Made by a program: the position numbers and the translations under genes
Shown here: piece after piece, positions 24,607 through 43,349 of the stretch
Layout: each line of letters begins with the position of its first letter
How positions within the stretch are numbered: the first letter of the stretch is position 1
The notes under the pieces: model-generated
The model's input: only the letters and a program-made list of their open reading frames with translations
What the model was told of the DNA's origin: nothing
Databases searched by the model: none
Source of the DNA: Martelella mediterranea
GTDB lineage: Bacteria; Pseudomonadota; Alphaproteobacteria; Rhizobiales; Rhizobiaceae
Assembly (NCBI RefSeq): GCF_004342225.1
Contig: NZ_SMAR01000012.1
Coordinates: 1-64,000 of the forward strand
DNA: 64,000 bases
Direction of reading: 5' to 3'

Positions 24607-26082
24607 TTAGGCAACGACCTGTTCAGCCATAACGCGTGCACCCTTTTCGACAAGTCCCTCATATGCAGAGACGAGGCCTTCAACGAATGCCTTATTTTCC
24701 TGCAAAACCTTGGGGAAGACGTCGTCGACGGCGACCATCGCTTCGACCTTCTTGCGTGGTGTTTCGCCGCTGTCTGAAAGCGCTTTCAGCTTTTCGGCGA
24801 GCGGGTCTCGCACATCGATCGGGTTGCCGCGTTCGTCCACACCGCCGACATAGCGCATCCATGCAGCAATCGCGAGCGAAAGGCCGGGAACCGGACGATC
24901 GGCTTCCAGATCCTCAGCGACGGTCTCCAGAATACGCTGCGGCAGCTTCTGTGAACCATCCATGGCGATCTGCCATGTGCGATGCTGGATCGACGGGTTT
25001 GAGTACCGCTCGAACAGAGCGGCGGTATATTCCTCAAGGCTGACACCGGGCGGTGCGTCAACAGCCGGGATGATTTCTCTTTCCCAGAGGAATTTGCAAT
25101 AGGCTGCAAACACCGGATCGGAAACGGTTTCGAAGATGGTTTCCTTGCCCGCCAGATAACCAAGATAGGAAATCGAGGAGTGCGTACCGTTCAGGCATCT
25201 GAGTTTCATATGCTCAAACGGGGTTACGTCTTCAACCAACTGCGCGCCGGCTGCACCGATATCCGGGCGTTCATTGTCGACAAACTTGCCTTCAACGACC
25301 CACTGGCGGAAGGGCTCGTGCATCACCGGAACCGGATCGTAAACGCCGGTCAGTTCTGCAACCTGCTCGATATCTTCCGGCTTGGTAGCCGGAACAATCC
25401 GGTCAATCATGGTGCAGGGGAAGGTGACTTCTTTCTCGATCCATTCGGCAAGCTCAGGATCGATCATGCCAGCCAGTTCGACGACAACGGCGTGGACGAC
25501 ATGGCCGTTATTGGGAAGGTTGTCCGAACTCATCATCGTAAACGGACGGATACCAGCCTTGCGGCGACGATCCAGTGCGCGAACGATATATCCGATTGCC
25601 GACTTCGGCTTGTTCGGATCTTTCAGGTCTTCCAGAATGAACGGATGCTCACGGTTGAGCTTTCCGGTTGACGGGAAATGGCAGTAGCCTTTTTCAGTCA
25701 CCGTCGATGTGACGATCTTGATTTTCGGATCGGCCATCAGTGTCAGTACGGCTTCCGGGTCTTCAGGTGCGTCGAGCACATCATTGAGAACCGGGATAAC
25801 CTGCGGCTTGATGCCATCAGGTGCCAGCGAGACAGCTGTGTAGGCAAAGCCCTGCGGCTCGAAAATCTCGCGCTGAAGCGGCGGAGTCATCAGGTTGACG
25901 CCGACAATACCCCAGTCACCGCCGGATTTCTTCATAGCTTCATAAAAATAAATGGCGCCATGGGAGCGGTAAAACGCTCCCAGGCCCAGATGCACAATCC
26001 CCGAACCCGGACGTTCAACGTCCGGGCGTTTGAGGCGGGGAAGGTCTTTCACATTAGCGGGCAAGCCAGCCTCCATCGACAT
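24607..26082 (-). CDS. uxuB: Mannitol dehydrogenase-family uronate reductase (UxuB/UxaB type)
   Basis: About 491 residues from ATG 26082. TTG 26064, five bases after GGAGG, and GTG 26052 are alternative starts; all overlap or touch the kduD end. The NAD-binding N-terminal half has IVHLGLGAFYRSHGAIYF and GIVGVNL, then IVTSTVTEKGYC. The C-terminal half has KLRCLNGTHSSISYLGYLAG with the conserved catalytic Lys/Asn region. It reduces a keto-uronate to an aldonate. The sequence is closer to fructuronate reductase, but its only dehydratase partner here is UxaA, which needs altronate, so tagaturonate reduction in vivo is likely. Symbol therefore tentative. Confidence 0.8.
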   Translation of the reverse strand: MSMEAGLPANVKDLPRLKRPDVERPGSGIVHLGLGAFYRSHGAIYFYEAMKKSGGDWGIVGVNLMTPPLQREIFEPQGFAYTAVSLAPDGIKPQVIPVLNDVLDAPEDPEAVLTLMADPKIKIVTSTVTEKGYCHFPSTGKLNREHPFILEDLKDPNKPKSAIGYIVRALDRRRKAGIRPFTMMSSDNLPNNGHVVHAVVVELAGMIDPELAEWIEKEVTFPCTMIDRIVPATKPEDIEQVAELTGVYDPVPVMHEPFRQWVVEGKFVDNERPDIGAAGAQLVEDVTPFEHMKLRCLNGTHSSISYLGYLAGKETIFETVSDPVFAAYCKFLWEREIIPAVDAPPGVSLEEYTAALFERYSNPSIQHRTWQIAMDGSQKLPQRILETVAEDLEADRPVPGLSLAIAAWMRYVGGVDERGNPIDVRDPLAEKLKALSDSGETPRKKVEAMVAVDDVFPKVLQENKAFVEGLVSAYEGLVEKGARVMAEQVVA

Positions 26083-26803
26083 TAAGAACCGCGCCATGGA
26101 TATAATTAGCCGCTGGCGAGGCGAGGAATACGGCCGTTCCCCCCATATCTTCCGGGGAGCCCCAGCGACCTGCCGGGATACGACCGAGAATTTCCGCAGA
26201 GCGCTTTTCATCTGCGCGCAGTGCGGCTGTATTGTTGGTGGCGATGTAGCCTGGCGCGATGGCATTCACATTGATGCCTTTCGCGGCCCATTCATTCGCC
26301 AGAAGCTTGGTAACACCGGCTACACCGCTTTTTGAGGCGGTATAGGAGGGAACGCGAATGCCGCCCTGAAACGACAGCATCGAAGCGATGTTGACGATCT
26401 TGCCAGTGCCGCCGCGTTCCAGAACCTTCTTGCCAAAACCCTGGCAGGTGAAGAACACAGCCTTGATGTTCATATCCATCACGTCGTCCCAGTCTTTTTC
26501 CGAGAAATCGACTGCGTCTTCGCGACGGATCAGGCCGGCATTGTTGACCAGAATATCAATCGGCTTGTCATAGGCCTCAATGAATTTCTTGCCATTCATC
26601 GGATCTGACAGGTCGAGGATTTCGCTGACGGCCTTGCCGCCAGCGTCCTTGATGATCTTGACCGTTTCATCCGATTCAACGTGACTGGTGCATATGACTT
26701 CAGCACCTGCCTGGCCGAGAGCAATTGCAATGCCCTGACCGATGCCGGTGTTCGCGCCTGTCACCAGTGCGCGCTTACCTTCAAGAGAAAAAGAAATAGC
26801 CAT
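26054..26803 (-). CDS. kduD: 2-dehydro-3-deoxy-D-gluconate 5-dehydrogenase
   Basis: 249 residues, classical short-chain dehydrogenase: TGANTGIGQG nucleotide loop, NNAG at about 87-90, catalytic Ser near 140 and YTASKSG (Tyr-x-x-x-Lys) at about 154-158. It opens ISFSLEGKRALVTGANTG, as KduD proteins do. It reduces 2,5-diketo-3-deoxygluconate (DKII) to KDG. The start overlaps the kduI stop by one base (TAATG), so translation is coupled. Confidence 0.94.
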   Translation of the reverse strand: MAISFSLEGKRALVTGANTGIGQGIAIALGQAGAEVICTSHVESDETVKIIKDAGGKAVSEILDLSDPMNGKKFIEAYDKPIDILVNNAGLIRREDAVDFSEKDWDDVMDMNIKAVFFTCQGFGKKVLERGGTGKIVNIASMLSFQGGIRVPSYTASKSGVAGVTKLLANEWAAKGINVNAIAPGYIATNNTAALRADEKRSAEILGRIPAGRWGSPEDMGGTAVFLASPAANYIHGAVLNVDGGWLAR

Positions 26804-27624
26804 TACTTAATCGTCTCCATGGATACCATTTCAACATCTTTGTAATCGACGTTATCGCCAGCCATGGCCCAGATGAACGCATAGTTGGATGTACCTGCAC
26901 CCGAGTGGATCGACCAGGACGGGGAGATTGCACCTTCCTCGTTCTTCAGGACCATGTGACGTGTTTCGTCCGGCTCGCCCATCATGTGGAAGACCCGCGC
27001 ATCTTCATCAAGGTCAATGTAAAGATAGGCTTCCATGCGGCGATCGTGCACATGGGCCGGCATGGTGTTCCAGACGGAACCTTTCTGCAGCTTGGTCATG
27101 CCGACAACAAGCTGGCAGGACTTCATCACGTCAGGGTGGACGAACTGATAGATCGTGCGTTCATTGCAGTTTTCCGAAGAGCCGAGAGTGACATTGGCAG
27201 CTTCTGCGATCTTGATGAGGCGCGACGGGTAGGTCTGGTGGGCCGGAGCCGAGATGATATAAAAGCGGCCTTCACCGGAAAAGGTGATCTTGCCTGCGCC
27301 CATGCCCAGGTAAAGCATGTCGCCGTGCACCATATCGTATTCAGCATCGCAGGTGACCTTTCCGGGGCCGCCAAGCTTCACGATGGTCATTTCGCGGCGG
27401 TCGAGAACCGAGGCTGTACCGCAGGGGGCAACGTGATCCAGCTCCAGCGTACTGTCGCCGGGGCAGGCGCCGCCGACCATCATGCGGTCGTAATGCGTAT
27501 AAATCAGATTGATTTCACCCGGTACGAAGATGTCGCTGACATGAAAATGCTCGCGCAGCTCGGACGTGTCAAACGTACTGGCCGTAACCGGGTCAATAGC
27601 GTGGCGGATTTCGATATTAAGCAT
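26803..27624 (-). CDS. kduI: 5-dehydro-4-deoxy-D-glucuronate isomerase
   Basis: 273 residues, cupin-fold isomerase. It begins MLNIEIRHAIDPVTASTFDTSELREHFHV. Metal ligands are expected in VWNTMPAHVHDRRMEAYLYIDL (His, His, Glu) and near RHMVLKNEEGAISPSWSIHSGAGTSNYAFIWAM. It converts DKI to DKII downstream of KdgF. The E. coli enzyme is of similar length. Confidence 0.96.
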   Translation of the reverse strand: MLNIEIRHAIDPVTASTFDTSELREHFHVSDIFVPGEINLIYTHYDRMMVGGACPGDSTLELDHVAPCGTASVLDRREMTIVKLGGPGKVTCDAEYDMVHGDMLYLGMGAGKITFSGEGRFYIISAPAHQTYPSRLIKIAEAANVTLGSSENCNERTIYQFVHPDVMKSCQLVVGMTKLQKGSVWNTMPAHVHDRRMEAYLYIDLDEDARVFHMMGEPDETRHMVLKNEEGAISPSWSIHSGAGTSNYAFIWAMAGDNVDYKDVEMVSMETIK

Positions 27625-27974: not shown

Positions 27975-29264
27975 CTAATGGAACAATGATGGCAGGAAGA
28001 GGGTCAGCGCTGGTATGTAAGTCACCAGCAGCAGAGTAAAGACGGCTGCGAAATAAAACGGCCAGATGGTTCTGATGGCTTGTGAAACCGGTATCTTGCC
28101 GACTGCGCAGCCAACAAAAAGCACAGATCCCACAGGCGGTGTGCAAAGCCCGATGCCGAGGTTCAGGATCATGATCACACCGAACTGAACCGGGTCGACG
28201 CCAAAGGCAGAGGCAACCGGCAGGAAAATCGGCGTTGTGATCACGATCAGCGGTGACATGTCCATGAATGTACCCAGAACCAGAAGGGCGACATTGATCA
28301 GGAGCATGATGATGATCGGATTTTCCGAAACCGTCTGCATGAAGGCGACGATGTTTGCAGGCACCCGCAAATAGGCCAGTAGCCAGCCGAAGCAGGCGGC
28401 AGAACCAATCACCAGAAGCACCATTGCTGTCGTTTTGACCGCACCGACCGTTACTTCGACGAAGGCTTTGAAGTCCATCGTCTTGTAAAGGAAGATCGTG
28501 CACAAAATCGCATAGACCACAGCGATATTGGAGCTTTCTGATGCGGTGAAAATACCGGAGCGTACACCACCGAAGATGATGGCAATCAGGATCAGACCAG
28601 GGATTGCATCCAGAAACAGATGCCCGGCCATCTTCAAACCCGGAAACTTTTCCGTCGGATAACCACGCTTCTTTGCCACAAAATAAGCGGCCACCATAAG
28701 TGCCAGCGCCAGAATGATGCCGGGAATGATGCCCGCCGTGAACAGATCGGCAATCGAGATACGGCCACCACCGGCGATCGAATAGATGATCAGGTTGTGA
28801 GACGGCGGTAGCATCAGCGCGATCATAGCCGCCGTCACAGTGATGTTCACCGCGTAGTCCGCGTCATAGCCACGTTCACGCATCTGCGGCACCATCAGGC
28901 CGCCAATGGCTGACGCATCAGCTGCAGCAGAGCCGGAAATGCCGCCAAAGAGCACCGATGCAGCAATATTGACCTGGCCAAGACCACCGCGGAAATGTCC
29001 GACCGCTGCACCGGCAAGCGCTACAAGGCGCCGGGCGATGCCGCCGCGGACCATGATTTCACCGGCGTAGATGAAGAAAGGAATCGCCATCAGCGCGAAA
29101 ACCGACACACCGGAGTTCAAACGCTGAAACACCACCAGTGGCGGAAGGCCAAGGTAGAGAATTGTGGCGAAGGATGAAATTCCAAGGCAGAAGGCAACCG
29201 GCGTTCCGATAAAAAGCAGGAAGGCGAAGGTGCCGAATAGGACTATCAGTTCCATGATCGTCAC
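27975..29264 (-). CDS. TRAP transporter large permease (DctM family)
   Basis: 429 residues with about twelve hydrophobic helices. Family landmarks: LVVFQRLNSGVSVFALMAIPFFIYAGEIMVRGG, GGISGSAAADASAIGGLMVPQM, MLPPSHNLIIYSIAGGG and LGTFMDMSPLIVITTPIFLPVA. It forms the Na+-driven channel. The start overlaps the dctQ stop by four bases (ATGA). Probable substrate is a hexuronate, by analogy with the galacturonate TRAP of Agrobacterium and from its operon. Confidence 0.95.
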   Translation of the reverse strand: MTIMELIVLFGTFAFLLFIGTPVAFCLGISSFATILYLGLPPLVVFQRLNSGVSVFALMAIPFFIYAGEIMVRGGIARRLVALAGAAVGHFRGGLGQVNIAASVLFGGISGSAAADASAIGGLMVPQMRERGYDADYAVNITVTAAMIALMLPPSHNLIIYSIAGGGRISIADLFTAGIIPGIILALALMVAAYFVAKKRGYPTEKFPGLKMAGHLFLDAIPGLILIAIIFGGVRSGIFTASESSNIAVVYAILCTIFLYKTMDFKAFVEVTVGAVKTTAMVLLVIGSAACFGWLLAYLRVPANIVAFMQTVSENPIIIMLLINVALLVLGTFMDMSPLIVITTPIFLPVASAFGVDPVQFGVIMILNLGIGLCTPPVGSVLFVGCAVGKIPVSQAIRTIWPFYFAAVFTLLLVTYIPALTLFLPSLFH

Positions 29265-29788
29265 TCCTCGTCAAAAAGATCGGTTTCGCCAAACCGTGCT
29301 GTCGGAAGTCCCGCGAAACGTCTTGCAATGCGTTCGAGCGAGAAAATGGACATGAGTGCACCGCCGCAGACCAGCGACAGGTAATCAATGCCACCGGGAA
29401 TACCGAGCGCTGGTGTGGTCGCACTCCAGGTTCCGGCAACCAGCTGGGACCCGTAGATGACCATGCCAGCGGAAAAGGCGATGACGAAGAAGTCGGAAAT
29501 GGTGAAGAAGGTGAGCTTCACCTTACGTGGAACGACATGGATCAGAATGTCGAAGCTCAGATGATAGCCCTGACGGATGCCGACGGCCGCGCCAAGGAAA
29601 ATAAACCAGCCCATCAGAAGAACAGAGGTTTGCTCTGTCCAGATCGGCGTTGAATTCAGAACATAACGACCAAAGACCTGCCATGCGATGAAGATCGTCA
29701 TCAGCGTGAGGCCGATGGCTGCCCCCCAAAGCGCGATGTTGGCGACAACACCCAGCACCCGCGCTATTGATTTCATTGTCTGTTGCAC
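29261..29788 (-). CDS. TRAP transporter small permease (DctQ family)
   Basis: 175 residues with four hydrophobic helices. GTG 29788 is preferred over ATG 29776 because GGGGGAG stands eight bases before it. Family segments: VFGRYVLNSTPIWTEQTSVLLMGWFIFLGAAVGIRQGYHLSFDIL. It forms the membrane complex with the large permease gene that overlaps it. Confidence 0.93.
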   Translation of the reverse strand: MQQTMKSIARVLGVVANIALWGAAIGLTLMTIFIAWQVFGRYVLNSTPIWTEQTSVLLMGWFIFLGAAVGIRQGYHLSFDILIHVVPRKVKLTFFTISDFFVIAFSAGMVIYGSQLVAGTWSATTPALGIPGGIDYLSLVCGGALMSIFSLERIARRFAGLPTARFGETDLFDEE

Positions 29789-29813
29789 TGTTTTTACTCC
29801 CCCGAGGAGAGAA

Positions 29814-29837
29814 CGCGGCGGCGATCAAACCGCCGCG
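29814..29837 (-). terminator. Hairpin between dctP and dctQ (possible attenuator)
   Basis: CGCGGCGG / CCGCCGCG with an eight-base loop, no T-run. Hairpins after binding-protein genes often reduce downstream expression or stabilise the upstream message. Confidence 0.5.
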
Positions 29838-29848
29838 CCCATCTGTGC

Positions 29849-30838
29849 TTACTGGGTTTCCTGAATACGCCTGACCATGTCTTTCAGCTTCTCGCTGGTG
29901 ACATGCTTTTCGTAGACAGGGCCCATGGCCTCAATGAACGGGGTCTTGTCGATATCGGTGATGATCTCGACGCCAGCCTCGCGGACGATGGCTTCGGACT
30001 CGGCTTCACGCTCAGCCCATTTTTCGCGCTGATACTCGACCGATTGCTTGGCCGTTTTACGTACGCAGGCCTGATCTTCCGGTGAAAGCTTGTCCCATGT
30101 GGTTTTCGACATCACCAGCACTTCCGGCACGATCAGGTGCTGATCGAGCGTATAGTATGGGGCGACATCGTAATGGCTGGACGATTCAAAGGACGGCCAG
30201 TTGTTTTCTGCTCCATCGATAACGCCGGTCTGGATCGAGGAGTAAACCTCGCCATAGGGCATCGGGGTTGCGTTAGCACCCAGTGCGTTGACCATGTCGA
30301 CAAAGATGTCGGACTGCATCACGCGGAATTTAAGACCGTTGAGGTCTTCCATCGAGGTGATTGGCTTTTCGCGGTTGTAGAAGGAGCGCGAGCCACCATC
30401 ATAAAAGGCCAGTCCCACGAGCCCGTAAGGTTCGAAGGCAGCCAGGATTTCATCGCCGATCTCGCCATCCATGACCGTATGCATGTGGTCGACGGAACGG
30501 AAGATGTAAGGTAGCGAAGGAACCTGCGTTTCTTCGATCAGACCGTTAAACGGCCCGAGACTCACGCGCAGCATATCGATAACGCCAAAGCGGGCCTGCT
30601 CGATTGTGTCTTTTTCCTCCCCGAGCTGAGCTGAGTCGTAAACATCAATGGCAAGGCCGCCATTGGTGCACTCTTCCAGCTGATCACTCATATATTCGAC
30701 GGCGACAACCGTCGGATAGCCCGCCGGATGCGTATCCGACGAGCGCAATGTCATATCTGCGGCATTTGCCGAAATGGCCCCCGTCGCAATGATCGCGACG
30801 GTTGCAATTCCCACTCCCAGTTCTTTCAAGCTTTTCAT
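29849..30838 (-). CDS. TRAP transporter substrate-binding protein (DctP family)
   Basis: 329 residues. Signal peptide [25 protein letters not shown], then [27 protein letters not shown]. The DctP signature follows: [59 protein letters not shown], with the Arg (KFRVMQ) that binds the substrate carboxylate. That suits a uronic acid. Gene order dctP-dctQ-dctM follows uxaC. Confidence 0.95.
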
Positions 30839-30870: not shown

Positions 30871-32274
30871 CTACAGCCTGTATGCGCGCTTGACCAGATT
30901 GTAGGCCAAGTCGCGCGCGACTTCGGGCGCTTCGTCCTCAGCGAGGCGCCCCGTGGCGACGAGTGTCGCCAGAAATGCACAGTCGACACGACGGGCAACG
31001 TCATGGCGCGCGGGGATCGAGCAGAATGCGCGCGTGTCGTCGTTAAAGCCAACTGTATTATAGAAGCCTGCAGTTTCCGTCATCATTTCGCGATAGCGAC
31101 GCATGCCTTCAGGGCTGTCATGGAACCACCAGGCAGGACCTGCTTTCAGTGACGGATAAACACCGACGAGCGGTGCCAGCTCACGCGAATAACTGGTTTC
31201 ATCCAGCGTGAACAGGATGATCGAAAGCTTCGGGTTCATGCCAACGGCATTGAGAAGCGGACGGAGATCGCGAACGTAGTTGGTCTGGGTCGGGATGTCG
31301 AAACCCTTGTCACGCCCGAACCGTGCCATCACGTCATCATTGTGGTTGCGCATCGATCCGGGGTGGATCTGCAGGACCAGACCATCTTCAATGCTCATGC
31401 GTGCCATTTCCGTCAGCATGTGGCCGCGGAAGGCATCGGCTTCTTCAGCAGAGCATTTTCCCTTAAGCGCCTTTTCAAAAAGAGCTTCGGCTTCAGCCTT
31501 CGGCAGATCTTCCGTGCGTGCGGTCGGATGACCGTGGTCGGTCGATGTTGCGCCATATTCCTTGAAGAACGCACGGCGAATGCGGTGGGCTTCGAGATAG
31601 CCGTCATAGTTTGTGGCGTCGACGCCGGCCATTTCACCGAATTTTTCGATGTTCCCGGCAAAACCTTCAAAATCCGGGTCGACAACCGGGTCGGGACGGT
31701 AGGCCGTTACCACCTTGCCGCCGGTCCAGCCGGACTCCTTGATCATCTTGTGCCATTTCAGATCATCAAGCGGGCTTTCCGTTGTCGCGATCACTTCGAT
31801 GTTGAAGCGTTCAAACAAAGCGCGCGGGCGGAATTCCGGCTTCTGCAGACAATCATTGATGTGGTCGTAAAATTCGTCCGCTGTTTCCGGGCCAAAACGT
31901 TTGGTCAGGCCAAAAACATGCTCAAAGGAATGTTCCAGCCATCCGCGGCTTGGTGTGCCGCGCAGCAGGTAAAAGTTCTCGGCAAACAGGCGCCAGATCT
32001 TGCGGCTGTCGGTCTCTGTTTCGCCGCCATCTGCACGCGGAACGCCCAGAGAAGTCAGGTCAACACCCTGCGAGCAGAGCATGCGGAAGACGTAATGGTC
32101 GGGAACGACGAAAAGTTTGGCCGGGTCCGGGAAGGGCTCGTTTTCAGCATACCAGCGCGGATCCGTGTGACCGTGCGGGCTGACGATCGGAAGTGTGCTG
32201 ACTTCATTGTAAAGCGAACGTGCAATATCCCGTGCACGCGGTTCGATCGGAAAGAGCCGGTCTTTGTCGAGCAT
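30871..32274 (-). CDS. uxaC: Glucuronate/galacturonate isomerase
   Basis: 467 residues, normal UxaC length. Amidohydrolase-like TIM barrel: [35 protein letters not shown] near the N-terminus (HxHxD), [27 protein letters not shown] and [26 protein letters not shown]. It interconverts galacturonate/tagaturonate and glucuronate/fructuronate. First gene of the leftward operon, divergent from gntR-kdgK. Confidence 0.96.
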
Positions 32275-32382: not shown

Positions 32383-33084
32383 ATGGCCGGAAAACTAAAT
32401 ATCGGGGCTCTGGAGCCGACGCGCTCTCCATCCGTGACGGATCTGGTTTATGAGCACCTTTACAAACAAGTTGTTGAAACGGATCTGCCGCCTGGCGCCA
32501 AACTTTCGGAAGTTGAGGTGGCGCGGCAGCTTGGAGTTTCGCGTCAGCCCGTTCGCGATGCGTTTTACCGTTTATCGCAGCAGGGCTTCCTGCTTATACG
32601 GCCGCAACGTGCAACGCTTGTGACACCGATTTCGATTGAGGCGGTGATGCAGGCACATTTTATCCGCACCTCGCTGGAAATGGCAACGGTCAGGGCCGCG
32701 GTGGAAATGGGACCGGAGTGCAACACGAAGGTCCTTGATGAAATGCTGGAACAGCAGCGCGAAGCCTATGATGCGGGCGACAAGGCGCTGTTTCATCAAC
32801 TGGATGACGAATTCCACAAGATCATTTCTGAGCTTTCCGGCCATGGTTACACCTGGTCATTGATCCGCGAACACAAGGCGCATATGGACCGGGTGCGCTT
32901 TCTCTCGCTGTCATTTACTGCGAACAACGCGCTCGAAGAACATGAAGGCATCGTCAAAGCCATAAAGGAAAACGATGTTGATGCTGCAGTCGAGGCAATG
33001 CGGTTTCACCTTTCCCGCATTGCCGGCATCGTTGAGCGAATCCACACGACCCATCCCGGTTTTTTTGAAACGGACGAAAAATGA
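32383..33084 (+). CDS. GntR-family (FadR/FCD) transcriptional regulator of uronate genes
   Basis: 233 residues from ATG 32383, with GGAGG (32373-32377) five bases upstream. The N-terminal winged helix has PSVTDLVYEHLYKQVVETDLPPGAKLSEVEVARQLGVSRQPVRDAFYRLSQQGFLLIRPQRATLV. The C-terminal FCD domain has metal-ligand-like residues in LFHQLDDEFHKIISEL and HLSRI. Probably a repressor released by a uronate or KDG, inferred from divergence from uxaC and coupling to kdgK (ATGA overlap). ExuR/UxuR are functional parallels. Confidence 0.92.
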   Translation: MAGKLNIGALEPTRSPSVTDLVYEHLYKQVVETDLPPGAKLSEVEVARQLGVSRQPVRDAFYRLSQQGFLLIRPQRATLVTPISIEAVMQAHFIRTSLEMATVRAAVEMGPECNTKVLDEMLEQQREAYDAGDKALFHQLDDEFHKIISELSGHGYTWSLIREHKAHMDRVRFLSLSFTANNALEEHEGIVKAIKENDVDAAVEAMRFHLSRIAGIVERIHTTHPGFFETDEK

Positions 33085-33995
33085 AAAAACTGCCTCCCAA
33101 AATCATGTGCATCGGCGAATGCATGGTCGAGATGGCGCCGCGCGAAGACGGGGCCTATCGGCGAGGATTTGCCGGCGATACCTTCAATTCGGCATGGTAT
33201 CTTTCAAAGCTTCTGCCGAAAGACTTCTCTGTCGACTATTTTACCGGTGCAGGCACGGATGCAATCTCCGGTGCAATGATAAGCTTTATGGAAGATGCGG
33301 GCGTTGGAACCTCCAGCATCCGCCGGTTCGACGATCGCACTGTCGGGCTTTATATGATCGCACTTAAAAACGGAGAGCGCAGCTTTTCCTACTGGCGTGA
33401 TATGTCGGCTGCCAAGCTTCTGGCAGAGGACCGGTCTGCGCTTGAAAAGGCCGTCGAAGGCAAGGGCCTGATCCTGTTTTCCGGCATCACCATGGCGGTG
33501 ATCTATCCCGAACATCGTGACATTCTTCTGTCGGTTCTTGCGGAAGCGCGCAAGGCCGGTGCTGTTGTGGCTTTTGATCCGAATATGCGTGAGCGTCTGT
33601 GGCCGTCACGCGAGGTGATGGCGGAAGCGATCACCAGGGCCGCTGCCGTCAGCGATATCGTCCTGCCGTCCTTTGATGAGGATGGCACGATTTTCGGTGA
33701 TGAGAACCCGCAAGCAACCATTGCACGCTATCGTTCGAAGGGTGTCAAAACCGTCATCGTTAAAAACGGCCCCAATACGATCTTTGCAGAAGATGCCGAT
33801 GCCGGGCCCGTAACCTTTGATCCGACACCGTCTGAGAATGTTGTTGATACCACCGCTGCCGGTGACAGCTTCAATGCTGGTCTGATTTCGGCCCTGATGG
33901 CAGGTGCTCCTCTTGTTGAGGCGCTTGAGAAGGCTTCAGCACTTTCTGCCCGCGTCATCGGTGCCCGTGGCGCTCTGGTCCCTGAGGCTATCTGA
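33081..33995 (+). CDS. kdgK: 2-dehydro-3-deoxygluconokinase
   Basis: 304 residues, PfkB-family sugar kinase. N-terminal IMCIGECMVEMAP, GGxxxN-like region RGFAGDTFNSAWYLSKLLP, and the C-terminal PfkB signature DTTAAGDSFNAGL from 256 with catalytic Asp 262. It phosphorylates KDG to KDPG, the common end of both branches in this region. The KDPG aldolase gene is not in the window. The start overlaps the gntR stop. Confidence 0.95.
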   Translation: MKKLPPKIMCIGECMVEMAPREDGAYRRGFAGDTFNSAWYLSKLLPKDFSVDYFTGAGTDAISGAMISFMEDAGVGTSSIRRFDDRTVGLYMIALKNGERSFSYWRDMSAAKLLAEDRSALEKAVEGKGLILFSGITMAVIYPEHRDILLSVLAEARKAGAVVAFDPNMRERLWPSREVMAEAITRAAAVSDIVLPSFDEDGTIFGDENPQATIARYRSKGVKTVIVKNGPNTIFAEDADAGPVTFDPTPSENVVDTTAAGDSFNAGLISALMAGAPLVEALEKASALSARVIGARGALVPEAI

Positions 33996-34867: not shown

Positions 34868-35785
34868 TCAGTCGTTCGGTCTCAAAAGAGGGTAGAGGGT
34901 CATGCCATCCTCTTCCCCCCTTGGGAAGCCACCATCCTGATGGCGCTTCTGCAGTATCTTGTAGCCAGCAGGGCTGACGCCGATATAGCGCTTGAACATG
35001 CGAGAAAAGTAGTAGCTGTCGGAATACCCGACGAAGGCGGCGGCCTGTTTGACGCTCTGTCCGCTTGCTAGAAGCGCCATGGCGCGTTCCATGCGCTTGA
35101 ACTCCTGATATTTCGGCGGTGTCAGGCCGACCTGCTTTCTGAATTCCCTGCGAAAATAATCTTCATTGTAAGGGATGCCTTCGAGTACGCGGGTTACCGT
35201 ATCTTCGCTGATCGGATCTGCTGCGATCTGACTGGCCGCGACCATCACTGACAGAGACAGGCTGTCCGGGCTGTTGACCGACACATCCTGTTGCGGCTTC
35301 CAGCGAATGAATGCAGCTTCGATAAATTCTGTCAGCAGCACGATAAACATATGGTGCTGGCTGAACGTGGTGGAGGAGAGTGGTACCGACTCGCGGTAGT
35401 GTCGCGCCAGAGGTTCGATCATGTCCCAGCGCGGCAGGTCGACCCATTTTTGGTATTCCAGCTGGTCCAGAAGGTCCATGCGGCCGAAAACTTCAGCTCT
35501 GAAATGCTGTGCCACGCCGGTATAAAGCTCTTTCGACAGGGACCGGCCGATGAAGCGTTGTCCTGCACGAATCAGCATCGCCCGGCCTGGCTTCATCTCG
35601 AAAGCTTCGCCGTCAATTTCATATTCAGCCCGACCGGTGAGGCAGATTACAAGGTCATGGACCCGGTTGATTTTGTCCGTTGTCCACGTGGACGTGTGCA
35701 GCATTTTGATGGCTGAGCGGGTTAATGTGAGGTTCAGCGCATTAACCGCAAGTCCGTCAAGAATGCCACCTTCGATTTTGTCCAT
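34868..35785 (-). CDS. AraC-family transcriptional regulator
   Basis: 305 residues. The N-terminal cupin-like AraC ligand domain (about 1-170) has TDKINRVHDLVICLTGRAEYEIDGEAFEMKPGRAMLIRAGQ. The C-terminal pair of helix-turn-helix motifs is at about 200-290: GIPYNEDYFRREFRKQVGLTPPKYQEFKRMERAMALL and SVKQAAAFVGYSDSYYFSRMFKRYIGVSPAGYK. It diverges from togMNAB, so it probably activates that operon in response to oligogalacturonides or a product (inference). Confidence 0.92.
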   Translation of the reverse strand: MDKIEGGILDGLAVNALNLTLTRSAIKMLHTSTWTTDKINRVHDLVICLTGRAEYEIDGEAFEMKPGRAMLIRAGQRFIGRSLSKELYTGVAQHFRAEVFGRMDLLDQLEYQKWVDLPRWDMIEPLARHYRESVPLSSTTFSQHHMFIVLLTEFIEAAFIRWKPQQDVSVNSPDSLSLSVMVAASQIAADPISEDTVTRVLEGIPYNEDYFRREFRKQVGLTPPKYQEFKRMERAMALLASGQSVKQAAAFVGYSDSYYFSRMFKRYIGVSPAGYKILQKRHQDGGFPRGEEDGMTLYPLLRPND

Positions 35786-36417
35786 CTTTTTGTCCGAAAC
35801 CCTCTATTCCCAATTTCGCGCCATCCATGATTATTAGCAGTCGAAACGTCAAATTCCAGACGTTGAAACGAATATTCAGACTGGGAGGACAGTACAGGCA
35901 TGGGAGTAAAACGAGTTTAATCGGTTTAATTCCGCTGTCTGTCTGCATGCGCCATGCACAATTCAGAACATATAAAGGCGTGTCATAAAATACGATGGGG
36001 AGGAGGGTCGCTGGTTTCGGCGACAATGCGCCCGGTAATGAATTGCCGGAGCTGCGCCCCTGTCTGGCAACGCCAAAACAGAATCGATATGCCTTTTGAA
36101 GGTCGGGTCCTGCATTCCCTTTTCAGTGCACGGATCAGCAAAAGAGGGCGTCTTTCGGGATCTGCCAGTGAGCGGTATAATGCTGCTTCTTGCCCGAGCG
36201 CACCTTTCGACCCGACTATGGCAGATGCGAAACGCCAAAGCGCCACTGGCAGGGTCGCTATGGCATATCAACCCGAACGGCCCGTTTTGCCGTTCATCTC
36301 TCACAAAACCTTCGTCTGCGCCAGCCGTCTTTTGGCGGCTCTTTTCCAGCGCAATAAACTGATCGTGGCTTTCGGGAGGGGTTCCGAAAATCCGTTCACA
36401 GTCATGGGGACCAAGTC
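35786..36417. other. Long divergent region / leader before togM
   Basis: 632 bases without a credible gene. It has the AraC-type repeats near the left end. A terminator-like hairpin AGCCGTC-TTTT-GGCGGCT followed by CTTTT lies at 36322-36343, about 75 bases before togM. The operon may have a long, conditionally terminated leader. ORFs crossing it read as shadows. Confidence 0.5.
35841..35874. promoter_or_regulatory. Direct repeats 22 bp apart between araC-type gene and tog operon
   Basis: TCGAAACGTCAA (35841) and TTGAAACGAATA (35863) start 22 bases apart, two helical turns, as AraC-type half-sites often do. An overlapping dyad AACGTC-N8-GACGTT (35845-35864) is an alternative reading. They are 56 bases upstream of the regulator's start. 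Confidence 0.4.
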
Positions 36418-37302
36418 ATGAGCGGCGAAAATCGTTTCATGGGCCTGGCCTATCTGTCTCCGTACATTATAGGCCTCCTGCTCTTCACGGCCGTACCCTT
36501 TATCGCTTCGTTTGTGCTGTCGTTTACCGACTACAGCCTGATGAGTGCGCCGCACTGGGTCGGTCTGAAAAATTATATCCGGCTTTTCACGCATGACCGG
36601 ACGTTCAACAAATCGCTGACCGTCACGCTGATCTACGTGTTTTCCACTGTTCCGCTGAAGCTTGCTTTTGCACTCCTGATTGCGGTGATCTTGAACTATA
36701 AGCTGAAGTTCATCAACTTCTTCCGCACCGCCTTTTATGTTCCATCGATCCTCGGTGGTTCTGTCGCAATTGCGGTTTTGTGGCGCTATCTGTTTGCCGA
36801 TGTCGGCCTCGTCAATATGATGCTGGAAGGCCTTGGTTTTCAGGCTGTCAACTGGTTCGGCGATCCCAACAACGCGCTGTTCACGATCACGCTTCTGCGT
36901 CTGTGGCAGTTCGGTTCGGCCATGGTGATCTTCCTGGCTGCTCTGCAAAGCGTTGATAATTCGCTCTATGAAGCGGCTGCGATTGATGGTGCCGGCAAAT
37001 GGCGAACCTTCTTCTTCATCACTTTGCCGCTGATTACGCCGGTGATCTTCTTCAACCTGATCATGCAGACGGTTCAGGCCTTCCAGGAATTCAATGGTCC
37101 TTACATCATCACCGGTGGCGGTCCGCTGAAATCAACCTACCTGCTGCCGCTCTACATCTACGACGAAGCGTTTAAAAACTTCCGCATGGGTTACGCCTCG
37201 GCAATCGCATGGGTGATGTTTGCCATCATCATGGTTCTGACACTGATCGCTTTCTGGTCGTCCCGCCACTGGGTCTACTACGCTGGCGACAAGAGGAGCT
37301 GA
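36418..37302 (+). CDS. togM: Oligogalacturonide ABC transporter permease TogM-like
   Basis: 294 residues, six membrane helices typical of MalF/UgpA-like sugar permeases. The EAA loop is YEAAAIDGAGKWRTFFFITLPLITP. It opens MGLAYLSPYIIGLLLFTAVPFIASFVLSFTDY. The gene order permease-permease-ATPase-binding protein equals togMNAB of Dickeya, and the binding protein resembles TogB. First gene of the operon, four bases before togN. Confidence 0.88.
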   Translation: MSGENRFMGLAYLSPYIIGLLLFTAVPFIASFVLSFTDYSLMSAPHWVGLKNYIRLFTHDRTFNKSLTVTLIYVFSTVPLKLAFALLIAVILNYKLKFINFFRTAFYVPSILGGSVAIAVLWRYLFADVGLVNMMLEGLGFQAVNWFGDPNNALFTITLLRLWQFGSAMVIFLAALQSVDNSLYEAAAIDGAGKWRTFFFITLPLITPVIFFNLIMQTVQAFQEFNGPYIITGGGPLKSTYLLPLYIYDEAFKNFRMGYASAIAWVMFAIIMVLTLIAFWSSRHWVYYAGDKRS

Positions 37303-37305
37303 GAA

Positions 37306-38217
37306 ATGACCGAAGCTTTGTCAAACGCAACAATTTCTGCGAAAGATCTGGAAGCCGCCCGCGCCCGCAAGAATGAGCAGCGCAAGGTCCTACTCTCTTC
37401 GATCATCCGCTATATCGTATTGTTCGCCGTCGGGCTGATCATGCTTTATCCGCTGATCTGGCTGATCGGTGCCTCGTTCAAGACCAATTCGGAGATGTTC
37501 GCCAGTGCCGGTTTCTGGCCGAAGAACCCGACCATCAGCGGTTATATTGAAGGCTGGAGAACCTCGACGCCTTATACGTTCGGCCGGTTCTTCCTGAACA
37601 CCTTCCTGATCCTGATCCCGAAAATGATCGGAACGGCGATTTCGGCAACGGCTGTTGCCTACGGTTTTGCCCGGTTCGAATTTCCCGGCAAGAAAGTGCT
37701 GTTCGCCTCGCTGATCGCGATCCTGCTTCTGCCGAACGTCGTCACCCGTATTCCCCAGTATCTGCTGTTCCGTGAATTCGGCTGGCTCGACAGCTTCCTG
37801 CCGCTATGGGTGCCATCTGCACTCGCCGGTGATGCCTTCTTCGTCTTCATGCTGGTTCAGTTCCTGCGCGCTATCCCGCGTGACATGGAAGAGGCTGCCC
37901 GCGTTGACGGTGCATCCAGCTGGCAGGCGCTGCTGTTCATTGTGGTGCCACTTCTGACACCGGCGCTGATCTCGGTGTGCCTGTTCCAGTTCATGTGGAC
38001 GATGAACGACTTCCTCGGTCCGTTGATCTATCTCTCATCTGTCGACAAGTACCCGGTATCGCTGGCGCTGAAGCTTTCCATCGACACCACTGAGGCATTT
38101 GCCTGGAACAAGATCCTGTCAATGTCGGTCCTCGCAATCACACCCGCCCTCGTCGTGTTCTTCATGGCGCAGAAATATTTCATCGAAGGGATCTCCGCAG
38201 GCGGAGTTAAAGGATAA
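37306..38217 (+). CDS. togN: Oligogalacturonide ABC transporter permease TogN-like
   Basis: 303 residues. A 35-residue polar N-terminus (EALSNATISAKDLEAARARKNEQRK) precedes six helices of the MalG-like type. The EAA loop is MEEAARVDGASSWQALLFIVVPLLTPALISV. It ends YFIEGISAGGVKG, the usual MalG-family tail. It pairs with togM to form the membrane channel. Confidence 0.9.
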   Translation: MTEALSNATISAKDLEAARARKNEQRKVLLSSIIRYIVLFAVGLIMLYPLIWLIGASFKTNSEMFASAGFWPKNPTISGYIEGWRTSTPYTFGRFFLNTFLILIPKMIGTAISATAVAYGFARFEFPGKKVLFASLIAILLLPNVVTRIPQYLLFREFGWLDSFLPLWVPSALAGDAFFVFMLVQFLRAIPRDMEEAARVDGASSWQALLFIVVPLLTPALISVCLFQFMWTMNDFLGPLIYLSSVDKYPVSLALKLSIDTTEAFAWNKILSMSVLAITPALVVFFMAQKYFIEGISAGGVKG

Positions 38218-38222
38218 GAACC

Positions 38223-39335
38223 ATGGCTAAAGTTGAGCTGAAAAACCTCGAAAAGGTCTATGGCAAATTCCAGGCCGTGCATGGCATCAACCTGGAAATC
38301 GAAGACGGTGAATTCATGGTGCTCGTCGGCCCGTCCGGCTGCGCCAAGTCCACCACGCTGCGTATGATTGCCGGTCTGGAGCGCATCTCCGGCGGTGAAG
38401 TTCGCATCGGTGATGATCTTGTCAACGACAAGGCACCCGGACAGCGTGGTATTGCCATGGTGTTTCAGAACTACGCGCTTTACCCGCATATGAAGGTTAA
38501 GAACAACCTGTCCTTCGGTCTTCGCCTGAAGCACGCGCCGAAAGATGAGATTGCTGCGGCGACGGATGACGTTTCGCACATCCTGGAGATTGAGGAATAC
38601 CTTGAACGACTGCCAAAGCAGTTGTCGGGTGGTCAGGCCCAGCGTGTTGCCGTTGGCCGTGCGCTGATCAAGAAGCCACAGGTGTTCCTGTTCGACGAAC
38701 CGCTGTCAAACCTCGATGCAAAGCTTCGCGCTTCTATGCGCGTGCGCATTACCGACCTGCATAAACGCCTTCTTGAAGAAGGTATGCATTCAACCGTGGT
38801 TTACGTCACGCATGACCAGACAGAAGCCATGACCATGGGAGACCGTATCTGCGTGATGAAGGAAGGCCGGATCATGCAGGTTGCCGATCCCTACACGCTC
38901 TATCAGAAGCCTGCGAATGCTTTTGTGGCTGGCTTCATCGGTTCGCCGGAAATGAACATCGGCGATGCGACGCTTGGTAGCGACGGTACGATCCGCATCG
39001 GCACGCAAGTGCTGAAGCTGGATGAAAAAACGCTATCTCGTATCGACAAAGATGCACCGAGTGAAGTGACCTTCGGCCTGCGCCCGCAGAGTTTTGATCT
39101 TGTCGATCCCGAGAACGGCGAGGGTTTGCTTGGCCGCATTTCTCACGTCGAGTTCATGGGGCACGAAATTTTCCTTTATGTCACGGTGGAGGATCAGTCC
39201 TTCACGATTGTGGTGCCTGCATCCGGCATGGAGGGACAGTATCAGCGCGATCAGCAGATCCGCGTGAAACCGCGTGAAAACGCGATGCACATTTTCCACC
39301 GTCGTACCGGCGAGAACATCTCGCTTTCGGCATAA
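38223..39335 (+). CDS. togA: Sugar ABC transporter ATP-binding protein TogA-like (UgpC/MsmK type)
   Basis: 370 residues. Walker A is GPSGCAKST near 39-47, with Ala in place of the more common Gly before Lys. The ABC signature is LSGGQAQRVAVGRAL near 136, Walker B VFLFDEPLSNLDAKLR, and the switch His is in VTHDQTEAMTMGDRI. A C-terminal OB-like regulatory domain (about 235-370) is typical of the MalK/UgpC group, so the subunit may respond to sugar-uptake regulation. Confidence 0.92.
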   Translation: MAKVELKNLEKVYGKFQAVHGINLEIEDGEFMVLVGPSGCAKSTTLRMIAGLERISGGEVRIGDDLVNDKAPGQRGIAMVFQNYALYPHMKVKNNLSFGLRLKHAPKDEIAAATDDVSHILEIEEYLERLPKQLSGGQAQRVAVGRALIKKPQVFLFDEPLSNLDAKLRASMRVRITDLHKRLLEEGMHSTVVYVTHDQTEAMTMGDRICVMKEGRIMQVADPYTLYQKPANAFVAGFIGSPEMNIGDATLGSDGTIRIGTQVLKLDEKTLSRIDKDAPSEVTFGLRPQSFDLVDPENGEGLLGRISHVEFMGHEIFLYVTVEDQSFTIVVPASGMEGQYQRDQQIRVKPRENAMHIFHRRTGENISLSA

Positions 39336-39368: not shown

Positions 39369-40643
39369 ATGAAACTGAAGATGACTGTACTGGCTGGCCT
39401 GATGGCCGCAACCTCACTTTCCGCCGTTCAGGCTGCGGATCTCCGCATGTCCTGGTGGGGCGGTGACAGCCGTCACCTTGCCACGCAGGAAGCTTTGAAA
39501 TACTGCGGTGAAAAGCTTGGTCACACGATTTCGCCGGAATTCACCGGCTGGTCAGGTCACCAGGAAAAAATTACCACGCAGCTTGCCGGCGGCACTGAGG
39601 CCGACATCATGCAGATCAACTGGCCCTGGCTCCCACTGTTCACGCCCACGGGCGAGGGCTTTGCCGATCTGAACGAGTTTTCCGACACGATTGATCTGTC
39701 ACAGTGGACCGATGCCGAGCTGGCAACATCCACCGTCAATGGCCACCTGCAGGGTCTGCCGCTTTCCATCACCGGCCGTTTGCCGTGGTTCAACAAGACT
39801 ACGTTTGAAAAAGCCGGACTGGAAATCCCGACCACCTGGGCTGAGCTGGAAGAAGCAGGCAAGGTGTTCAAGGAAAAGCTGGGTGAGGACTACTATCCTT
39901 ACGAAGCAACGGGTCAGGATGGCCTTGATGCCCGTCTTCTTATGACAGCTTATCTGACACAGAAGACCGGCAAAACGATGATCGACCCGGAAACGCTGGA
40001 GCTCAACTACTCCATGGATGAGCTTGTTGAGGCGCTGAACATGTACAAGCGCTTTTCAGATGAAGGCGTGATCATTCCGTGGCCGAAGGTCGCTGCAGGC
40101 GGCAATCTGGTTTTGAACGAAAACCCCAACTGGTCTGATGGTCACATTGCGGGCACCTATCAGTGGGACACGGTTTACTTCAAGATTTCCGACCCGCTGC
40201 AGGAAGGTCAGGAACTGGTTCCATCCAGCATCCTTCTTGCTGAAGGCGCAACCAATGATGGTGTTTATCGTAAGCCATCCATGTTGTTCTCGATCTCGAA
40301 GAACTCCGACAACCAGAAAGCCGCTGCTGAAGTCGTCAACTGCCTCCTGAACGATGAGGGCGCAATTGACATTCTGGGCACAACCCGTGGTCTCCCGGCT
40401 TCAAAGAAAGCCTTTGATCAGCTGATGGAAGCCGGTGAAATCGCTCCGGAACAGATCGAAGCTCACCAGATCATTCTGGATGCAACCGGACCAACGATTT
40501 CGCCATACTTCGAACATCCGCAGATTGCTCAGGCGATCGGCGATACGCTCGAGGAGTTTGCCTATGGCCAGATCGACGCCGAAACAGCTGCCGACGACAT
40601 TATCTACAACGTCAACGACGTTCTTGATCGGCTGAACCGCTAG
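39369..40643 (+). CDS. togB: Oligogalacturonide-binding periplasmic protein TogB-like
   Basis: 424 residues. Signal peptide KLKMTVLAGLMAATSLSAVQA, cleaved before ADLRMSWWGGDSRH. The motifs LRMSWWGGDSRHLATQEAL, ITTQLAGGTEADIMQINWPWLPLF and SITGRLPWFNKTTFEKAGLEIPTTWAEL recall Dickeya TogB more than generic maltose-type proteins. A hairpin follows it, and then the intracellular hydrolase gene. Confidence 0.9.
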   Translation: MKLKMTVLAGLMAATSLSAVQAADLRMSWWGGDSRHLATQEALKYCGEKLGHTISPEFTGWSGHQEKITTQLAGGTEADIMQINWPWLPLFTPTGEGFADLNEFSDTIDLSQWTDAELATSTVNGHLQGLPLSITGRLPWFNKTTFEKAGLEIPTTWAELEEAGKVFKEKLGEDYYPYEATGQDGLDARLLMTAYLTQKTGKTMIDPETLELNYSMDELVEALNMYKRFSDEGVIIPWPKVAAGGNLVLNENPNWSDGHIAGTYQWDTVYFKISDPLQEGQELVPSSILLAEGATNDGVYRKPSMLFSISKNSDNQKAAAEVVNCLLNDEGAIDILGTTRGLPASKKAFDQLMEAGEIAPEQIEAHQIILDATGPTISPYFEHPQIAQAIGDTLEEFAYGQIDAETAADDIIYNVNDVLDRLNR

Positions 40644-40706: not shown

Positions 40707-43349
40707 ATGACCGCCATTGAGCTGCTTGCCGTTTCGGCGAGGACGGTGACTTTTGCTGCCTTTTCGAGGCAATCCAAATACTTCCTGAAGGATACGCTTG
40801 ATTGGCGCGTCGTAGACGCTGCCTCTGGTGACACTGTTGCAAAAGGCCAGACCGCGAAAACAGTCTTCAGTGTCTTCGGTCTGGAACCGGCAAGCGATTA
40901 TCGTCTTGAAATCGGTGACGAAGGCCTGGCCTTTAATACTACTTCAGAAGCCCGCTTTGCCGATATTACCGAGTTTGGCGCGACACCGGAAAGCCCGAAC
41001 AATGCCGCGGCCATCCAGAACGCACTTGATACGCTGCCTGCCGGTTCAACGCTGTTTTTCGGTGCCGGTGTCTGGAGCACGGGGCCGCTCTTTCTGAAAA
41101 GCGGTATCACGCTTTATCTTGCTGAAGACGCTGTCCTTTATGGCATTGCAGACCGTGATCAGTATCCGATCCTTCCCGCGCGCCATGACGATGGCCGGGT
41201 GCTCGGTACATGGGAAGGTGTTGCAGAGCCCTGCTATGCCTCCGTTATCACTGCGATTGATCAGAAAAATATCACGATCACCGGTCCCGGACGGATTGAT
41301 GCCGGCGGTGATCGCGGCGACTGGTGGACCTGGCACAAGGAAACCCGCAACGGTGCGCGCCGTGCCCGGACCCTGTTCCTGAGCGGCTGTGAAAACATCA
41401 CTGTTACAGGTCCCACGATTTGCAACTCTCCCGCCTGGATGGTGCACCCTGTCTTTACTGAAAATATGCTGGTTGCCGACGTGAAGATCGAAAGCGATCC
41501 GGATTCGCCGAATACGGACGGTTTTGATCCTGAATGCTGCACCAATGTTGTTATGCGCGGCATTCATTTTTCTGTTGGAGATGACTGTATCGCCATCAAG
41601 GCTGGCAAGCGCGACCCTAAAGGCGGGCTGGATGGTCCAACACGCAATATCTGGATTGAGAACTGCTTTATGGAGCGCGGCCACGGCGGTGTCGTTGTCG
41701 GCTCGGAAATGAGCGGCTCGGTTTCCAATGTCACTGTCGCTCGCTGCGAAATGCGCGATACTGACCGCGGGTTCAGGGTTAAAACCCGGCGCGGCCGTGG
41801 TGGTTTTGTTTCACAGATTTTGATGGAAGACTGTGAAATGGACAATGTCGTCAGCCCGTTCGTAATGAACGCGTTTTACTTCTGCGATAGTGATGGCAAA
41901 TCCGACTATGTACAGTCTCGCGATCCGGATGCTGTTTCTGATGTTACACCGCGCATGTCGGATATCACGATGCGTCGTGTTGTTGCGCGCAATGTTCACA
42001 CCTCTGCGGCGGCTTTTTACGGGTTGCCGGAGATGCCGATCGAGAACGTCACGATTGAAGATTACACAGTTTCTTATGCGCCACATGCTATCGCCCAGCC
42101 GCCGGTCATGGCCTGCCAGATCGATCCCGTTCGCCATGCAGGCATTATCGCTGAAAACGCATCTGTGACCGCGACGAATGTGGTTTTTGAGCGCGAGGCG
42201 TCAGTGGAACCATTCTACCAGCAGGCGCTTTTGCGTTACTGCGATGAATATGCCCGCGATTACGAGGCTTATAAGGGCGGCCCGCTTTGCTATGAAGATG
42301 GCTGCCTTTATCGCGGTCTGATCGCACTTTATGAAACCACAGGTGAAAAGCGCTGGTTTGATCATCTGGTTCGCCTCGTGAGTGCGCAGGTTGATGAAAA
42401 CGGCGTTATGGCCGGGTACGTGCTGGAAGATTTCAACATTGATAATGTTCTGTCCGGCCGTGCGCTGGTCTGGCTGGCGCGAAACAGCGAGGATCAGCGT
42501 TATAAAAAAGCTGCTGACACGCTGGTCGAACAGCTTAAAAAACATCCGCGCACCAAGGAAGGCCCGCACTGGCATAAGCATCGCTACCCGGAGCAGGTCT
42601 GGCTTGACGGGCTTTATATGGGGCTGCCGTTCAAACTCGAATATGGTCTGGCCTTCGATGTACCACATCTGATTGAAGAAGCCGCTGACGAGCTTCTGGC
42701 TGGCCTCGATGTGACCTATGACCCGGAAAGCCGGCTCTATCGTCATGCTTATGATTCTGCGCGTGTTCAGCCGTGGGCCGACAGCCAAACCGGACAGGCA
42801 CCGGCACACTGGTCGCGGGCGATTGGCTGGGCCGCGATGGCACTGGTCGATATCATTGAAAACCTGCCGGATGGCGAAAAACGCAATCGTCTGATTGCGC
42901 GCTGGGCGGCACTCGCCGGGCAGCTTGGTGGGATGACCACTGCCGACGGACGCTGGCTGCAGGTGACAGATAAGCCGGAAATGGGTGGCAATTATGCGGA
43001 GAGTTCGGCAACGGCCATGTTTGCCTATGCCTATATGAAGAGCCGCCGTCTGGGCCTTGCCGGAGTGGATGCCGCAATTGGCGATCAGGCTTTTGAAACA
43101 CTGGTGCGCAAGGCTTTTGAAACCGATGAGAGCGGCCGCCGGGTTCTTGGAAAGATCGTTTGTGTCGCCGGTTTGGGAGCCTTCGGTGGTGTCATTCGCG
43201 ACGGCACACCCGGATATTATCTGACCGAGGCTATTCGCGCTGACGATATTAAAGGAGTTGGCCCGTTCATGATGGGCTTTGCCGAGGTGCTGGCCGAATC
43301 CAGGGCTGCTGGTCTCGTGGCAGAAGGCAAGAGCAGGGCGGTCGCCTGA
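40707..43349 (+). CDS. Fused polygalacturonase (GH28) - unsaturated galacturonyl hydrolase (GH105)
   Basis: 880 residues, no signal peptide. Residues 1-85 look like a fibronectin III-type domain, as in bacterial exo-polygalacturonases. Residues 86-495 are a GH28 beta-helix with all catalytic groups: NTD 269-271, DD 292-293, GHG 325-327 and R357/K359. Residues about 505-870 are a GH105 (alpha/alpha)6 domain: GRALVWLARN, QVWLDGLYMGLPF with Asp 634, and HWSRAIGW with His 701. The first domain should release galacturonate units, the second should cleave the unsaturated non-reducing end left by lyases. Encoded directly after togB, so it most likely acts on imported oligomers in the cytoplasm. The reading frame is open throughout, so this is not a frameshift artefact in this sequence. 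Confidence 0.9.
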   Translation: MTAIELLAVSARTVTFAAFSRQSKYFLKDTLDWRVVDAASGDTVAKGQTAKTVFSVFGLEPASDYRLEIGDEGLAFNTTSEARFADITEFGATPESPNNAAAIQNALDTLPAGSTLFFGAGVWSTGPLFLKSGITLYLAEDAVLYGIADRDQYPILPARHDDGRVLGTWEGVAEPCYASVITAIDQKNITITGPGRIDAGGDRGDWWTWHKETRNGARRARTLFLSGCENITVTGPTICNSPAWMVHPVFTENMLVADVKIESDPDSPNTDGFDPECCTNVVMRGIHFSVGDDCIAIKAGKRDPKGGLDGPTRNIWIENCFMERGHGGVVVGSEMSGSVSNVTVARCEMRDTDRGFRVKTRRGRGGFVSQILMEDCEMDNVVSPFVMNAFYFCDSDGKSDYVQSRDPDAVSDVTPRMSDITMRRVVARNVHTSAAAFYGLPEMPIENVTIEDYTVSYAPHAIAQPPVMACQIDPVRHAGIIAENASVTATNVVFEREASVEPFYQQALLRYCDEYARDYEAYKGGPLCYEDGCLYRGLIALYETTGEKRWFDHLVRLVSAQVDENGVMAGYVLEDFNIDNVLSGRALVWLARNSEDQRYKKAADTLVEQLKKHPRTKEGPHWHKHRYPEQVWLDGLYMGLPFKLEYGLAFDVPHLIEEAADELLAGLDVTYDPESRLYRHAYDSARVQPWADSQTGQAPAHWSRAIGWAAMALVDIIENLPDGEKRNRLIARWAALAGQLGGMTTADGRWLQVTDKPEMGGNYAESSATAMFAYAYMKSRRLGLAGVDAAIGDQAFETLVRKAFETDESGRRVLGKIVCVAGLGAFGGVIRDGTPGYYLTEAIRADDIKGVGPFMMGFAEVLAESRAAGLVAEGKSRAVA

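Follow-up and report, generated by a model that had tools for sequence, protein, structure and literature searches.

In Martelella mediterranea, enzyme domains of glycoside hydrolase families GH28 and GH105 are fused in the product of one gene, which lies at 40707..43349 on the + strand of the window, meaning the whole stretch of 64,000 nucleotides that was analyzed. The fusion of the two families in a single Martelella gene is confirmed, and its frame is also open in eight other Martelella genomes. We consider it likely that the gene product is a cytosolic protein that handles imported oligogalacturonides with two enzyme halves and that arose by a single fusion. What was observed in favor of this reading is the domain content, the intact residues, a frame that is open in nine genomes, the neighborhood and a single branch in the GH28 tree.

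Translation of 40707-43349 gives 880 residues (calculated mass 96.5 kDa) with a sole, terminal stop, and Pfam finds Glyco_hydro_28 and then Glyco_hydro_88 in the one chain, NCBIfam also recognizing the protein. The first-pass annotation, which had proposed an uninterrupted 880-codon frame holding both enzyme domains and had named a domain search as its check, was thus borne out. Along the chain, an N-terminal beta-sandwich is followed by GH28, six disordered residues and a YteR-type GH105 domain, and the structure model (72 sequences; mean pLDDT 93.2, pTM 0.62) accordingly has a beta-sandwich with strands within residues 4-77, a beta-helix, a linker at residues 497-502 (42195..42212, + strand) with pLDDT below 50, and a helical domain. 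Because of this linker and the pTM of 0.62, the relative placement of the GH28 and GH105 halves is uncertain in the model, and comparison of the full model returned no structure spanning both enzymes among the best 50 listed. The first domain (residues 1-80; 40707..40946, + strand) had been labeled FN3. That label is upheld by its fold, given that seven strands were modeled between residues 4 and 77 and that alignment with a GH28 exopolygalacturonase of Yersinia, an enzyme that we take to have an FN3 domain, begins at residue 1 (2uve, residues 1-496, Z 33.5; also 2uvf); it is not upheld by Pfam, in which residues 1-80 had no match at E 0.001, FN3 included, and we refer to the domain as FN3-like. 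The Yersinia enterocolitica enzyme (YeGH28; 2uve and 2uvf) is like the Martelella protein in joining an N-terminal domain to GH28, but no part of its solved chain aligns with the Martelella GH105 half. As had also been proposed, no signal peptide is evident, as judged by reading, and the model confidently places residues 4-9 and 13-18 in strands of the first domain.

The GH28 beta-helix occupies residues 81-496 (40947..42194, + strand). Pfam Glyco_hydro_28 matched residues 179-459 with 132 bits against a cut-off of 22.9, and the NCBIfam PglA equivalog model matched residues 4-489 with 657 bits against a cut-off of 600. Residue conservation was read from an alignment of the window protein with eight fused relatives, 34 separate GH28 proteins and 41 separate GH105 proteins. 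The GH28 residues picked out from the sequence at the outset (D271, D292, D293, H326, R357 and K359), which correspond to the Asp triad, His, Arg and Lys with roles in GH28 catalysis, are all conserved in every one of the 42 aligned relatives (eight fused and 34 separate GH28 proteins). By sequence, the nearest solved proteins are exo enzymes (3jur, 143 bits; 2uve, 99 bits), as against 85 bits for 1bhe, which we take to be an endo-type GH28, and by structure 3jur (Z 41.6) and 1bhe (Z 40.9) are about equally near. The GH28 half is probably exo-acting on saturated ends; since 1bhe is as near by structure as the exo enzyme 3jur, it is nearness in sequence that points to the exo mode.

The C-terminal half was correctly recognized as GH105. 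Its domain (residues 503-870; 42213..43316, + strand) has the all-helical fold of 4wu0 and YteR, and residues 528-862 match Pfam Glyco_hydro_88, a model shared by GH88 and GH105 that here matches GH105 proteins, with 232 bits against a cut-off of 26.6. In the structure comparison of residues 500-870, 4wu0 of Clostridium acetobutylicum (Z 51.1) and YteR of Bacillus subtilis (Z 48.6-48.9) were the best partners among the matches listed. Both share the fold and the catalytic Asp with the Martelella domain, but their chains of 360-373 residues consist of the GH105 domain alone, whereas that of Martelella is fused to GH28. Asp 634, which the first-pass annotation had singled out, aligns with YteR D143, the residue altered in the entry titled YteR/D143N/dGalA-Rha, and is kept, as are D579, H680, W702 and R704, in 49 of 49 aligned relatives (8 fused, 41 separate GH105). 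Its other choice, His 701, is present in all eight fused rows but in just 23 of the 41 separate ones, and has to be replaced by His680 as the conserved histidine. With regard to substrate, YteR, one of the closest solved GH105 relatives, was crystallized with dGalA-Rha, a rhamnogalacturonan product. Passages of PMC7267202 describe three cytoplasmic GH105 enzymes in Paenibacillus amylolyticus, of which two strip unsaturated ends off oligogalacturonides and the third, YesR, is inactive on homogalacturonan products, and passages of PMC6106730 report a Clostridium stercorarium GH105 protein as a xylanase. The YteR ligand, YesR and the xylanase together mean that GH105 family membership by itself leaves the substrate unfixed; by analogy with the enzymes above, it is plausible that the GH105 half hydrolyzes an unsaturated galacturonyl residue.

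The full locus was present in 9 of 13 Martelella genomes (its own included), one of the 13 having no match and three having weak GH105 matches alone. In all nine fused genes the junction is free of stops and the gene is a single open frame. The first-pass annotation had made its proposal depend on the absence of a stop or frameshift near residue 500; there is none, and the same frame is open in the eight other Martelella genomes. The probability that an assembly or sequencing error fused two genes in the sequence is negligible, considering that eight other genomes have the identical open frame and that four of the fused relatives also have records under a species name (M. lutilitoris, M. radicis, M. 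alba and, in an unverified record, M. mediterranea). As the open frame is common to all nine Martelella genomes having the locus, the fusion is not a sequencing error. Stop flags in four Martelella genomes were considered as junction breaks and rejected, being terminal stops. Pairwise comparison of the nine fused genes gave median dN/dS values of 0.28 in the first domain (36 pairs), 0.11 in GH28 (36 pairs), 0.16 at the junction (30 pairs) and 0.13 in GH105 (36 pairs). An AENA motif precedes the junction, and the 55 codons starting there contain no ATG, GTG or TTG in five of the nine genes. Candidate starts at the junction exist in the remaining four, the window's included, with no position shared by three or more genes. 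The window gene has a GTG at codon 500 with GAGG directly upstream, so that a separate GH105 product may arise from a minor internal start.

Outside Martelella the two families are normally separate, as had been stated at the outset: a stop lies between the domains in all 33 distinct, clean GH28-then-GH105 loci that were read (family sample, 11; order, 15; class, 1; genome contigs, 1; plasmids, 5), with GH28 and GH105 in different frames in 29 and in the same frame in four. The material searched comprised partly overlapping samples of 297 family, 347 order, 337 class and 299 phylum genomes, in addition to genome contigs and plasmid places. Plasmid records with coverage of at least 80% numbered 28; ten of them were read for fusion, and among the other 18, H2 and H11 equal L031 and L041 in length and position. 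Kept outside the 33 were L030 (a locus identical to L058 and L076), in which GH28 is without its first 112 residues in frame and the junction stop is present; L115, a faecal contig whose matches are shorter and in different frames; L071, L073 and L075, with broken frames; L070, with the reverse order; and repeats of counted loci (L058-L061, L063-L066, L076, L093-L095 and L099-L103). Among the 299 phylum genomes, the window's own match alone spans both halves at E 1e-20, and the genomes with unread frames of 847 aa (G1117) and 901 aa (G1067) have their GH28 matches about 5 and 16 kb away from the GH105 matches. An independent fusion in G595 and G417, whose frames were listed at 976 and 986 aa, was rejected because a TAG after the GH28 part makes both of them split, and G279 and G282 of the family sample have a TGA at the junction. 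In G299, G182 and G073, GH105 matches within frames 800-939 aa long were likewise dismissed as fusions, as they look like ordinary GH105 genes with the frame open further upstream; other long frames of the family sample, such as those of G293, G071, G216, G269 and G205, were left unread. Broken or shortened GH28 frames (L073, L075, L071 and L030), seen in plasmid records of Neorhizobium (two) and Rhizobium (one) and in Shinella zoogloeoides, reflect either decay or sequencing error, and in Neorhizobium L074 the GH28 gene is whole.

Of the split relatives, Allorhizobium pseudoryzae L067 and L031 are the nearest, and in both of them gh28 and gh105 share 4 nt, the stop of the first gene overlapping the start of the second. 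Most split pairs overlap or lie no more than about 20 nt apart, many overlapping by 4 to 7 nt (the exceptions, L081 and L085, are separated by about 100-135 nt). Of the 43 rows in the GH28 tree, the nine fused ones stand together on one side of a branch supported at 100/100, amounting to one change of state, and are joined to L067 and L031 at 94/92, under the starred level. Since the fused rows lie on one branch, a single fusion is simplest, and the simplest account of the sequences would be one fusion of adjacent, translationally coupled genes in an ancestor of the carrier Martelella lineages. GH105 relatives without an adjoining GH28 were seen in L009 and in L062 (a wider stretch around L037), indicating that the two halves can do without each other.

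Immediately upstream of the fused gene are genes for a TogMNAB-type importer, the feeding system that the first-pass annotation had named: two ABC permeases in the TogM and TogN positions (36418..37302 and 37306..38217, + strand; both PF00528), an ABC ATPase in the TogA position (38223..39335, + strand; PF00005, TOBE_2 and OB_MalK) and a TogB-like oligogalacturonide-binding protein (39369..40643, + strand). The last is nearest to 2uvg-2uvj, with the best E value, 2.6e-88, for 2uvh, as compared with 2e-22 for YesO. According to passages of PMC8839585, these entries show Yersinia TogB either in apo form or with one of three ligands (digalacturonate, its unsaturated form, or trigalacturonate), and the protein binds digalacturonate, both saturated and unsaturated; the Martelella binding protein is thus related to TogB of Y. 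enterocolitica. Further away, the window encodes a divergent AraC-family regulator (34868..35785, - strand; PF12833), whose position is kept in split relatives, a PfkB kinase that is a probable KDG kinase (33081..33995, + strand; PF00294, with 240 bits to the KdgK model, under its cut-off of 400), the uronate isomerase UxaC of the galacturonate branch (30871..32274, - strand; 591 bits against a cut-off of 387), a TRAP transporter with family matches to DctM, DctQ and DctP (27975..30838, - strand) and KduI of the unsaturated-residue branch (26803..27624, - strand; 396 bits against a cut-off of 250). Roles of the following three were assigned by us: a short-chain dehydrogenase, probable KduD (26054..26803, - strand; PF13561), a mannitol-dehydrogenase-type reductase, probably for a UxaB-type step (24607..26265, - strand; PF08125/PF01232), and an altronate/galactarate dehydratase, probable UxaA (22945..24480, - strand; PF20629/PF04295). 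In the annotation of L068, kduI adjoins kduD. The listed ORF of the reductase overlaps its neighbor, so its true start is probably further in. Neighbors were read in 18 distinct split loci whose flanks were long enough, L058 with its shortened GH28 among them; in 17 of these a divergent AraC regulator is followed by two permeases, the ATPase, the TogB-like protein and then GH28 and GH105, and the same importer-enzyme block occurs in four Martelella loci (L004-L007). At L102:6759-8190 (genome G474), AraC, permeases, ATPase, gh28 and gh105 are kept and there is no TogB-like gene in the usual place. In the window, an ORF of 155 aa (35954-36421) that lies between the genes of the AraC regulator and the importer had no family match and no counterpart in the related loci searched, and is probably not a gene.

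In the function that we propose, for which we infer the substrates, the exo mode, the cytosolic location and the order of action, oligogalacturonides would enter through the importer encoded just upstream, and the GH105 half would take a 4,5-unsaturated galacturonyl residue off the non-reducing end, which would open to DKI and pass to KduI and KduD. The saturated remainder would be trimmed by the GH28 half, probably in exo mode, to galacturonate or digalacturonate, and galacturonate would enter the UxaC branch, the two branches converging at KDG. The plain effect of the fusion would be that both activities are made in equal amounts on the same chain. A search of the genome found no match to PL22 oligogalacturonate lyase, with a positive E. 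coli control, and none to PL1, PL10 or a second GH28; the PL2 and PL3 searches of the genome gave no matches and their controls were equally silent. In view of the missing PL22 match, the GH105 half could take the place of oligogalacturonate lyase, and the fused protein suggests how such an alphaproteobacterium could still process unsaturated fragments. With no PL1, PL10 or second GH28 match, the cell may not produce unsaturated fragments itself, and the lyase searches fit a scavenger of fragments made by others.

A different substrate was also considered, namely rhamnogalacturonan-I fragments, with GH105 taking dGalA off rhamnose and GH28 taking galacturonate off rhamnogalacturonan oligosaccharides. 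The dGalA-Rha ligand of YteR speaks for it, as do the scores of the GH28 half on the NCBIfam models for the BT4155 galacturonidase (143 bits) and the BT4153 rhamnogalacturonidase (124 bits) and the presence of 5olp, titled galacturonidase, among its near structures. However, these models need 800 and 650 bits, respectively, while PglA passes its own cut-off, the binding protein is nearest to TogB and not to YesO, and rhamnose genes were absent from the part of the window's proteins that was scanned, all of which makes this substrate distinctly improbable.

With oligogalacturonides as the preferred substrate, there remains the question of what the fusion itself brought about. A kinetic relay between the halves is a guess. 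It is unlikely, in our estimation, that the protein is a true bifunctional relay in which its two active sites work one after the other on a single imported oligogalacturonide, the GH105 step exposing the saturated end required by GH28, and in which this advantage fixed the fusion in Martelella; as the halves sit on a disordered linker with uncertain relative placement, channeling, which the first-pass annotation had proposed, gets no support from the model. Somewhat better than even, we judge, are the chances that the fusion was nearly neutral, a small change having erased an overlapping stop and fixed the enzyme ratio with no channeling added. The short distances or overlaps in most split pairs (L081 and L085 excepted), the disordered linker with the pTM of 0.62 and the occurrence of GH28 and GH105 apart elsewhere are in line with neutrality, against which stand a junction that is gap-free among the nine fused genes, with its median dN/dS of 0.16, and the fact that none of the nine carriers has split the gene again, neither of these being proof of a gain in rate. 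Near-neutrality is compatible with our favored explanation of a cytosolic two-enzyme protein, and the confidences in the two need not sum to one.

Adjacent gh28 (PglA type) and gh105 genes in Rhizobiaceae and other Alphaproteobacteria, for example in Allorhizobium pseudoryzae, Agrobacterium larrymoorei and Qingshengfaniella alkalisoli, have the same domains, order, importer and regulator as in Martelella, but are two genes with a stop between them where Martelella has one. With relatives having both domains as adjacent genes, the fused protein looks like a tidy local variant more than a new kind of enzyme. Nor is the GH28-GH105 architecture new, since PMC11784079, the one paper with such a tandem among the literature matches listed, places the two families, stated with GH28 first as in Martelella, under one Segatella copri locus tag (NQ544_01830). 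As compared by description, the Segatella tandem sits in a Bacteroidota PUL with SusC/SusD-type proteins (PMC11784079), whereas that of Martelella is in an ABC operon. We found no report of a signal-less GH28-GH105 protein in a Tog-type ABC operon among the literature matches listed, a body from which subscription journals are mostly absent, and such a fusion seems to be new. It offers a natural comparison, the same enzymes and importer being served by two proteins in the relatives read and by one in Martelella, that would reveal whether joining two likely consecutive steps alters flux, and the protein may be a compact enzyme for pectin fragments, both saturated and unsaturated.

Other arrangements of these families were encountered. 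GH105 precedes a nearby GH28 in a Niallia taxi megaplasmid (L070:8959-11375), in a contig labeled Listeria phage that looks like misbinned bacterial DNA (L116:2588-4788) and in two other proteobacterial genomes (L104:1480-4033 and L106:1447-4005). A plasmid record of Bacteroides finegoldii (L072:2962-4890) has a GH105 part and a pectinesterase part in one frame of 643 aa, which is another GH105 fusion, if real; its gene table begins at the pectinesterase (3958). Within the window, 53347-56010 encodes an aldehyde dehydrogenase and an iron alcohol dehydrogenase in one chain of 887 aa, a two-domain layout that is presumably as in AdhE.
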